Positions 34,772-37,276 of a stretch of DNA of 37,276 nucleotides are shown here, one piece after another; within the stretch, counting starts at the first letter, position 1, and the number at the start of each line of letters is the position of its first letter. The notes under the pieces were generated by a model that saw only the letters and a program-made list of their open reading frames with translations, had not been told where the DNA came from and searched no databases. Both the position numbers and the translations under genes were made by a program. Source of the stretch: Microcaldota archaeon (lineage in GTDB: Archaea > Micrarchaeota > Micrarchaeia > Micrarchaeales > CABMGC01); the NCBI GenBank assembly GCA_027328425.1, contig DAHVUT010000001.1:1-37276 (forward strand), given 5' to 3'.

Positions 34772-37276
34772 ATGGCTAATAGGGGCCGGAATAATAGGGC
34801 TGGGCGCACCAGGGCCAAGAAGGCGCAGTCCGCGGTGGAGTACCTTGTCACGTACAGTTGGGCGATACTGATAGTCGCCATAGTGGTGGCAATCCTATAC
34901 CTCTTCGTATCCGCACCCCAGAGGATAGTGCCCTCGTCGTGCGTCTTCAGCATAGGCGCTTACTGCAACCAGCTTGTGTTCGGTTCTAATTCAGTCACAT
35001 CGAGCGTGGCCATGTTCCTGACAAATAGGGAAAGCTATCCCATAGCTTATCCGAGCCTCGTGCTCAACTACAGCGGCCTGGCGCCAATAACGGGCACGTG
35101 CAAGCCCAATCTCGTCCTCCAGGGCGGTGCAATAATATGCAACGTCACCATTTCGCAGCAGGCGATAGCGCTTGGCGCGCTCGTTTCGGGCAAGCTGTTC
35201 CTGACCGCAACACCGTGCCCCAGCGCCAACCTGCTTTCGTGTCAGGGTGCTGCTTCGCAGACATACGTAGGCTCGTTCAACACGCATATTTCTCCGCTGC
35301 TTACCTCAACCCCTACCACTGTGACGCTCGGCGTGGCCAATTCTACGCAGGCAGGTGACGGTGCCATGGACATGCTTACCGCCACAGTGAAGATGCAGGG
35401 CACGCCACTGGCCGGAGCAACAGTCAACTTCACGATGAACAACAGCATAGCCACGCTCTCTCCTGCCATAACGACCACAGACAGCGCTGGAGTTGCTACA
35501 TCCTACATTTCAAGCACCGGCACAGGCAACGTGCTGGTGACCGCCGCATTCGCCGGCGAGACGGCCAACGTGCCTGTGGCGTTCGTAACGCCAGCCGCCA
35601 CCACTGTGGGCCTGGGGTCCAGCGTATCCGGCCAGATGTGCACCAGCGGCAACCCCAACCAGGTGGTCGTCACCATAGCCGGAGTGAATTATGCTTGCTC
35701 CCAGCTACCTGTAACGCTGAACTGGCAGCCGGGCTCGCAGCACAGCTACTGCTTCACCAGCCCCATAATCAACTCGAGCAACGGCTACGTGCGCTACGTG
35801 TTCAGCTCTGTTTCGGGCTGCGGCGCTACGGGCACGCAGTGCGGTACCTTCACTGCAGGCTCGTCAGGTTCCAGCTGCCCCATCATTGGAAACTATATAG
35901 TGCAGTACTACCTGAATGATTACGCCAGCCCCAGCACGGGCGGCAGCGCAAGCCCGGCCACAGGCTTCTACAACGCAGGCTCGGCGCTCACGCTGAACGC
36001 AGTGGCCAACACCAACTACTTATTCTCGCAATGGCAGGGCACAGGTTCAGGCAGCTACACAGGCACCAGCGGCACGCAAGGCATAACGCTCAACAATCCT
36101 GTGACTGAGGAGGCGCTCTTCTCCGGCCAGGTGTCTTCCTCCTCCACCACTACCTACATCTCCTCGTCATCCTCCACCACCACCATCATCATGCTCCCTC
36201 CCACCCTCGTCTCTTCCACCTCCGTCACCTCCTTGTCCTCCACCACCACCATCATCACGCTCCCTCCCACCCTCGTCTCTTCCACCTCCGTCACCTCCTT
36301 GTCCTCCACCACCACCATCATCACGCTCCCTCCCACCCTCGTCTCTTCCACCTCCGTCACCTCCTTGTCCTCCACCACAACAATAACGCCCGCTGCCGGC
36401 CAATGTGCTTCTGCTGCAGTCTGTGGTTTCAGCACCACGTGCTCAGCTGGCATATGCGGGACTGTAGCCGTGAGCCACTTCGATGAGGTAAATGGCGTGT
36501 GCGCGCTGAGCGGCGGGCCTTACTCGGTCTACAACTGCCAAGTTTCAACAACTACGATTACGCCTTCCGCCGGCCAATGTGCTTCTGCTGCAGTCTGTGG
36601 TTTCAGCACCACGTGTTCGGCTGGCGTATGTGGGGGCGCAGCCGTGAGCCACTTCGATGAGGTAAATGGCCAGTGTGTGGTGAGCGGCGGGCCTTACGCG
36701 GTCTACAACTGTCAAGTATCATCTTCAACAACTACAATTACGCCTTCTGCTGGCCAGTGTGCATCGAGCGCAGTTTGTGGCTATAGCACCACGTGCTCGG
36801 CTGGCGTATGTGGGGGCGCAGCCGTGAGCCACTTCGATGTGGTAAATGGTCAGTGTGTGGTGAGCGGCGGGCCTTACGCGGTCTACAACTGTCAGGTTTC
36901 TACCACCACTTACCAATCTACCACCACCTACCGGTCCACCACAACCTACCGGTCCTCCACCACCACTTACCAATCCACCACAACCTACCAATCTACCACC
37001 ACTTACCAATCTACCACAACCTACCAGTCCTCCACCACCACCTACCGGTCTTCCACCACTATCACTTCATCCAGCAGCTTCGGCTCCGCTACTGCAGTGC
37101 TCATGGCGAGCGGCGCCTATGAGCCCATATCCTCCATCGTGCCCGGCGACATAGTGATGTCGTACGACACGCAGACCGGCGCATTCGTGCCGAACATAGT
37201 GGCAAAGGTGCTAACGTACAACGTCAGCAAGGAATACATAATAAACGGCGTCATTGTTACCGACGCCAACGAGTAC
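34772..37276 (+). CDS. Large surface protein: pilin-type signal, Ig-like, InlB-like, Cys-rich repeats and Hint domain (partial)
   Basis: At least 835 residues, open to the window end. Residues 1-48 carry a class III (pilin-type) signal: a basic head, KKAQSAVEYL, and a hydrophobic helix that PibD-like peptidases would cut before Gln19 or nearby. Next come an Ig-like module (about 180-273; LAGATVNFTM and DSAGVATSYIS) and an InlB B-repeat-like module (about 373-451; YNAGSALTLNAVANT). A Thr/Ser/Pro repeat (about 467-532), three six-Cys modules (about 543-709) and a TTTYQS linker (to about 763) follow. From Ser769, FGSATAVLMASGAYEPI and IVPGDIVMSYDTQTG match the start of a Hint fold, with Ser at the nucleophile position. 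It is probably a pilus-like or adhesin structure with autoprocessing; its function is unknown. Confidence 0.85.
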   Translation, partial: MANRGRNNRAGRTRAKKAQSAVEYLVTYSWAILIVAIVVAILYLFVSAPQRIVPSSCVFSIGAYCNQLVFGSNSVTSSVAMFLTNRESYPIAYPSLVLNYSGLAPITGTCKPNLVLQGGAIICNVTISQQAIALGALVSGKLFLTATPCPSANLLSCQGAASQTYVGSFNTHISPLLTSTPTTVTLGVANSTQAGDGAMDMLTATVKMQGTPLAGATVNFTMNNSIATLSPAITTTDSAGVATSYISSTGTGNVLVTAAFAGETANVPVAFVTPAATTVGLGSSVSGQMCTSGNPNQVVVTIAGVNYACSQLPVTLNWQPGSQHSYCFTSPIINSSNGYVRYVFSSVSGCGATGTQCGTFTAGSSGSSCPIIGNYIVQYYLNDYASPSTGGSASPATGFYNAGSALTLNAVANTNYLFSQWQGTGSGSYTGTSGTQGITLNNPVTEEALFSGQVSSSSTTTYISSSSSTTTIIMLPPTLVSSTSVTSLSSTTTIITLPPTLVSSTSVTSLSSTTTIITLPPTLVSSTSVTSLSSTTTITPAAGQCASAAVCGFSTTCSAGICGTVAVSHFDEVNGVCALSGGPYSVYNCQVSTTTITPSAGQCASAAVCGFSTTCSAGVCGGAAVSHFDEVNGQCVVSGGPYAVYNCQVSSSTTTITPSAGQCASSAVCGYSTTCSAGVCGGAAVSHFDVVNGQCVVSGGPYAVYNCQVSTTTYQSTTTYRSTTTYRSSTTTYQSTTTYQSTTTYQSTTTYQSSTTTYRSSTTITSSSSFGSATAVLMASGAYEPISSIVPGDIVMSYDTQTGAFVPNIVAKVLTYNVSKEYIINGVIVTDANEY
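36170..36367 (+). repeat. Three 66-base tandem repeats (22-codon Thr/Ser/Pro units)
   Basis: Copies begin at 36170, 36236 and 36302, and a short fourth remnant begins at 36368. Copies 2 and 3 are identical; copy 1 differs by one base (ATG for ACG). Each encodes a unit containing TTTII, LPPTLVSS and TSVTSL. The length is a multiple of three, so copy number can change without shifting the frame. It works as a mucin-like stalk segment. Confidence 0.95.
36398..36900 (+). repeat. Three six-cysteine modules (58-60 codons each)
   Basis: Units beginning at GQC are spaced 174 and 180 bases apart (Cys codons near 36404, 36578 and 36758). Each holds the pattern QC-x5-C-x5-C-x3-C...C...NCQV, with phrases AGQCAS, STTCSAG, CGG and GGPYAVYNC. 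The DNA is more than 85 percent alike by eye, which indicates recent duplication. Six Cys per unit suggests three disulfides. Confidence 0.9.
36901..37060 (+). repeat. TTTYQS/TTTYRS low-complexity linker
   Basis: About eight 18-21 base units encode STTTYQ or STTTYR variants, directly before the Hint domain. CAA/CAG and CGG alternate within otherwise similar units. This is a flexible, probably O-glycosylated linker. Confidence 0.9.

Follow-up and report, generated by a model that had tools for sequence, protein, structure and literature searches.

A Hint-fold domain with Ser, Asp and Glu at its catalytic positions terminates a pilin-signal surface protein in Micrarchaeales

A Hint domain at the end of an archaeal surface protein raises the question of whether such a protein processes itself and, if so, by what chemistry. 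Hint catalysis is usually conceived as the work of a Cys or Ser at position 1 together with a TxxH motif. The stretch of DNA analysed here (the window, 37,276 nucleotides of a Microcaldota archaeon, contig DAHVUT010000001.1) breaks off inside a gene of this kind, for which a first-pass annotation had proposed canonical autoprocessing, that is, splicing, Asn cyclisation or hedgehog-type transfer with TxxH. A literature search on archaeal surface Hint domains found no paper.

The open reading frame begins at an ATG at position 34772 of the + strand (alternative start 34730) and is still open where the window ends at 37276. A search of the source genome recovered the rest of the gene, as the first-pass annotation had advised: another contig, C24, opens with 141 bases that repeat the window's final 141 exactly (37136..37276, +), and the frame is kept. 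An overlap of exactly one such length is typical of k-mer assemblers. The completed gene encodes a protein of 901-902 codons, with the stop 67 codons beyond the window, and its Hint domain is whole, the C-terminal half lying at positions 1-342 of the C24 locus (L004) including the overlap (new coding part 142-339, stop to 342). Because close relatives, 41-52% identical, align continuously over the junction, we take the join to be right; a wrong join is ruled out by this alignment together with the kept frame.

Judged by its sequence, the completed product is confirmed as a pilin-signal surface fibre protein ending in a Hint fold. Residues 1-47 (34772..34912, +) have the features of a class III (pilin-type) signal, namely a short basic leader, a cleavage motif (KKAQ, then SAVEYL) and a hydrophobic helix with Glu5; cleavage would fall between KKAQ and SAVEYLVTYSWAILIVAIVVAILYLFV. 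This signal type, QSA[VLM]EYL..Y.WA, is common to nearly all full-length relatives. There follow, all on the + strand, a Big_1 bacterial Ig-like domain (35321..35587; Pfam PF02369, E 4e-10), a Flg_new_2 or divergent InlB B-repeat domain (35927..36124; PF18998, E 1.4e-5), a Ser/Thr-rich, mucin-like stalk (36134..36391), three tandem Cys modules of about 58 residues (GQCAS.AVCG.STTCSAG.CG..., 36392..36901) and a second stalk rich in Ser, Thr and Tyr (36902..37075) that reaches the Hint domain. The adhesin-like modules, stalks and Cys modules named by the first-pass annotation are thus all seen, in the sequence or by Pfam. A run of 51 bases elsewhere (G000:C7:15170-15220, L003) is 88% identical to the Ser/Thr stalk repeat and probably belongs to another stalked surface protein.

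The Hint domain begins at 37076, its N-terminal half filling the window to 37276 (+) and the rest lying on C24, as delimited by the sequence, by Pfam and by the fold modelled for a relative with 50% identity. Once completed it has 142 residues and is the last domain of the protein, whose C-terminus reads YGYLADAISG-stop, about five residues past YLAD. Only 2 residues follow the Hint profile match in the window's protein, and 0-4 in relatives with intact 3' ends; the cargo domain that the annotation had suggested looking for does not exist, and the hedgehog-like layout that it described is borne out.

The window's own domain matches the Pfam model PT-HINT with an E-value of 8.6e-6 and 26.5 bits, slightly below the 27.7-bit cut-off, and that of the 50%-identical relative (in genome G005) scores 30.2 bits, above the curated cut-off. 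An AlphaFold model of the relative, built on 53 sequences, has a mean pLDDT of 92.5, and its best Foldseek match in the PDB is a bacterial-intein-like (BIL) domain, BIL2 (E 2e-10, TM 0.87), other BIL domains, inteins and hedgehog being matched as well. By this model, the domain is predicted to have the horseshoe-shaped beta fold of Hint proteins. Ser769 (37076..37078, +) falls exactly at position 1, so the annotation was correct in both fold and first residue.

The remainder of the active site is altered. We gathered 47 related domains, including that of the window, from the order and the phylum (group 1); their pairwise identity has a median of 37% and a minimum of 22%, and they form 31 clusters at 60% identity. 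Without exception they carry Ser at position 1, Asp at the block-B Thr position (Asp831, 37262..37264, +) and Glu at the block-B His position (Glu834, 37271..37273, +), such that the canonical TxxH has become DxxE in 47/47. Aligned with a canonical Hint domain, L096, they show no gaps between the conserved Asn and the strand that follows (IN-GNLVVDAGE versus IN-DKIRATGEH), and homology suggests that the three residues lie close together in space. In the seven-residue linker that precedes Ser1, no position has Ser in more than 12/47 domains (about 26%), against 47/47 at Ser1 itself. Conservation at positions -7 to -1, which are small residues anyway, is uninformative. The invariance of Ser1 supports a role for its hydroxyl. 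In the completed window domain the terminal His-Asn and a C-extein nucleophile are absent, LVHN being represented by LAD-x; the last Asp, which replaces the penultimate His, occurs in 30/45 group 1 domains and Thr in 11. The domain is also low in charge and in His, which could reflect a general acid adaptation of surface proteins.

Since block-B Thr and His and the terminal His and Asn are all absent, canonical splicing, Asn cyclisation and textbook hedgehog-type catalysis are excluded. The first-pass annotation is therefore upheld in its fold, its Ser1 and its layout, whereas its simple version fails on the very residues, those of blocks F and G, whose loss it had named as decisive. Ser at position 1 and a terminal Hint domain with no cargo, as in hedgehog, do speak for canonical autoprocessing, but with no block-B Thr/His, no terminal His-Asn and no C-terminal extein we regard it as very improbable. 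A wrong join could rescue only the C-terminal block; with Asp831-x-x-Glu834 inside the window, the canonical reading is already contradicted, and the main finding is independent of the join, on which only the C-terminal block relies. So far as the sequence goes, the losses leave room for attack by Ser769 on the N-terminal flank. Having looked for TxxH and HN and found neither, we claim no membership in the catalytic Hint families; we see in the domain a departure from the usual Hint fold, in which either the known site works with a new residue set or the site has been reused.

Several known systems resemble this domain in part. BIL domains, the top structural matches (Tetrahymena BUBL1 BIL2, 6y75/6tmm, TM 0.87; Clostridium thermocellum, 2lwy, TM 0.84), are of similar length and are likewise self-standing Hint domains outside an intein context, but they retain Cys1, TxxH and usually the terminal His-Asn, where the archaeal surface domain has Ser1 and DxxE and lacks HN. 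Hedgehog/Hog domains (1at0, 6tyy) share the Hint fold and likewise close a secreted protein, with only a short tail after them; the archaeal domain, however, is without Cys1, TxxH and the sterol-recognition region, and any transfer by it is putative. Class 1 inteins have the same fold and block layout, permit Ser1 and tolerate replacement of the block-B and penultimate His (PMC7664689), yet the surface domain stands at the very end of its protein, with no C-extein and no canonical terminal His-Asn, and an intein in the strict sense is ruled out on these grounds. PT-HINT (PF07591), the pretoxin Hint, is the closest Pfam model but differs in position and partners; a polymorphic toxin is ruled out, no toxin domain following the Hint. 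The closest canonical relative found is L096 (G300:C27), which comes from a different family within the class; it is a C-terminal domain adjoining a surface-like protein, which keeps Cys1, TGEH and VHN and scores 108 bits against the group 1 profile. An in-frame TGA lies two codons before its Cys1 (STGG-TGA-GCFLKG, L096:1568-1573), which may be a sequencing error, a pseudogene or recoding.

Cytoplasmic inteins of the same phylum serve as a control. In a PT-HINT search, Cys1 and [T/S]xxH were kept in 18 of 19 of them (the exception is L143), their hosts including SufB, eRF1, RtcB, an Mrp-like ATPase and others. Both kinds sometimes occur in one genome: G144 has TEEH in its SufB intein (L148) and also carries a surface Hint domain (L094) of a second clade. 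This clade, group 2, comprises seven domains from the same order (L033, L091-L095) with another altered active site (Cys1, TPxDQP and LVD-type ends), which are likewise without block-B His and terminal Asn. In the tree, group 1 forms one clade with support 0.85 and group 2 another with support 0.99.

Gene conversion also appears to touch these domains. Two contigs of one genome (L089 and L090; G150:C41, C42) end at the same point within nearly identical Hint domains, yet the fibre proteins that carry these domains plainly differ, with 45% identity where they align. This pattern points to gene conversion or cassette exchange; it would also account for assembly breaks at Hint domains. The paralogous domains L087a and L088a (G093) have identical second halves against 76% identity of the whole proteins, suggesting local gene conversion.

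The setting in which these domains work is probably acidic. The relatives' contigs match public Micrarchaeota MAGs, some labelled Marsarchaeota, with the names SKS, MAS, FK, TL, YP and KMA. Among these six names, FK, TL and MAS are mine sites with documented pH: acid mine drainage (AMD) sediments at TL (Tongling) and MAS have a pH of 2.5-2.8, and the Fankou core ranges from extremely acidic to near neutral (PMC7779479). The Micrarchaeales are described as acidophilic (PMC12892359), and we infer low-pH life for the window's organism as a member of that order.

We tentatively favour, at somewhat less than an even chance, acid-adapted chemistry in which an N-to-O acyl shift at Ser769 releases the tip or transfers the stalk, and prefer it to a dead domain. 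The Hint domain would form the distal tip of a fibre anchored by its pilin signal and would still act at its N-terminal junction, Ser769 attacking the peptide bond before it while Glu834 and Asp831, which titrate at low pH, transfer protons. The ester formed by the stalk might then be hydrolysed, and the tip shed; alternatively, a nucleophile on the surface of a partner or host might take it over, in a hedgehog-like transfer with no splicing. At pH 2-3 His is always protonated, while Glu and Asp are able to exchange protons, and acid favours the N-to-O acyl shift at Ser in peptide chemistry. The replacement of Cys/Ser-Thr-His by Ser-Asp-Glu would parallel, within the Hint fold, what sets subtilisin (Ser-His-Asp) apart from the acid-active sedolisins (Ser-Glu-Asp). 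These serine-carboxyl peptidases, which work at low pH and are separated from subtilisins by this very residue set (PMC11593635), have an unrelated fold and offer an analogy for the swap only. An autocatalytic ester-bond domain of adhesins, again unrelated in fold, similarly accepts a carboxylate for His: its His-to-Glu variant reaches up to 87% of wild-type efficiency and is explicitly described as sedolisin-like (PMC12679949). Chemistry on the preceding peptide bond best explains why Ser1 is conserved together with both block-B sites. Counting against acid-adapted cleavage, the domain has lost TxxH, which is the best-conserved catalytic motif in Hint domains, and group 2 has a different residue set within the same order. 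The low charge and low His content, with the more general cause that they could have, count on this side too.

The most serious competitor is a catalytically dead Hint domain retained for its stable beta structure as an adhesive tip or spacer module, sometimes duplicated, that binds a partner, a host or the products of the two downstream genes (A and B, below); we lean against it but consider it a real possibility. None of the order's surface copies retains TxxH or HN, the domain is always the last one, as fits a tip module, and the partners are conserved ectodomain proteins. The Hint domain also occurs in triple copies and, in about half of the proteins, in tandem. Such repetition makes little sense if the first copy is shed, and nothing else speaks as strongly for a role without catalysis. 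The first (a) and second (b) group 1 domains of tandem proteins mostly fall in separate groups of the tree, and the Ser-Asp-Glu trio is kept in both. Passive decay should have led to drift, yet the three catalytic positions are invariant, and in one fast-evolving copy they are lost together: in L076b and L086b, close relatives on a long branch that represent one event, the trio has changed jointly to Thr or Ala, Tyr and Gln, which looks like the loss of a shared function.

Alternatively, the old active site may have become a metal site, in which Ser1, Asp, Glu and frequently the last Asp bind Ca2+ or another divalent ion and stiffen the tip or bridge a ligand. Three to four oxygen ligands replacing Cys, Thr, His and His would suit such a site, and AMD water is rich in metals. 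We nonetheless think it distinctly unlikely, given that the last Asp is variable (30/45, with Thr in 11) and that carboxylates are poor metal binders at pH 2-3.

The fibre gene heads a conserved three-gene surface operon. Among about 35 loci where the sequence continues beyond the Hint gene, 28 have a one-TM ectodomain protein (A) next, at -17 to +130 nt, and 26 have a second single-TM ectodomain protein (B) after it. In the window's genome the two lie on C24 at L004:351-1049 and L004:1054-1644, and neither matched any Pfam family. By BLAST, the A proteins form families that span 15 and 8 genomes, and the B proteins belong mainly to one of 13. The model of partner A is of moderate quality (pLDDT 75.7), with weak best matches to TiME, DcrB, EagT6 and PsbP (E about 2e-3, TM 0.2-0.4), and a Mog1/PsbP-like fold is only a lead. 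By appearance only, TnpB-like reading frames lie near the window's start, at positions 2-745, and on the adjoining contig, at L004:5883-7127, both on the - strand.

The partners A and B could mean that the Hint domain serves at the C-terminus as a signal for targeting or assembly, read by A or B at export or anchoring, any cleavage taking place in trans. One common C-terminal domain on fibres with differing middles, and an operon shared with two membrane-anchored ectodomain proteins, would be expected of such a signal. It would, however, leave unexplained why exactly Hint position 1 and the block-B sites are conserved, and we judge it quite improbable. The transfer branch of the preferred acyl-shift reading can be taken further: the Ser-Asp-Glu Hint domain would form an ester at the tip of a DPANN fibre and hand the stalk over to an operon partner or a host archaeon, either of which would supply the nucleophile; this would be a covalent and autocatalytic attachment of a symbiont's fibre. 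We put this specific version forward as an unlikely but coherent one. ARMAN cells contact Thermoplasmatales via pili-like structures (PMC5864196), and the Hint operon names proteins that could be tested for a part in this contact.

A surface clade in which the whole catalytic set has given way to invariant Ser, Asp and Glu, while inteins in cytoplasmic proteins of the same phylum have kept the old set, would amount to a natural experiment on moving an autocatalytic site to low pH. Alternatively, the same clade may show how an enzyme fold turns into something else.
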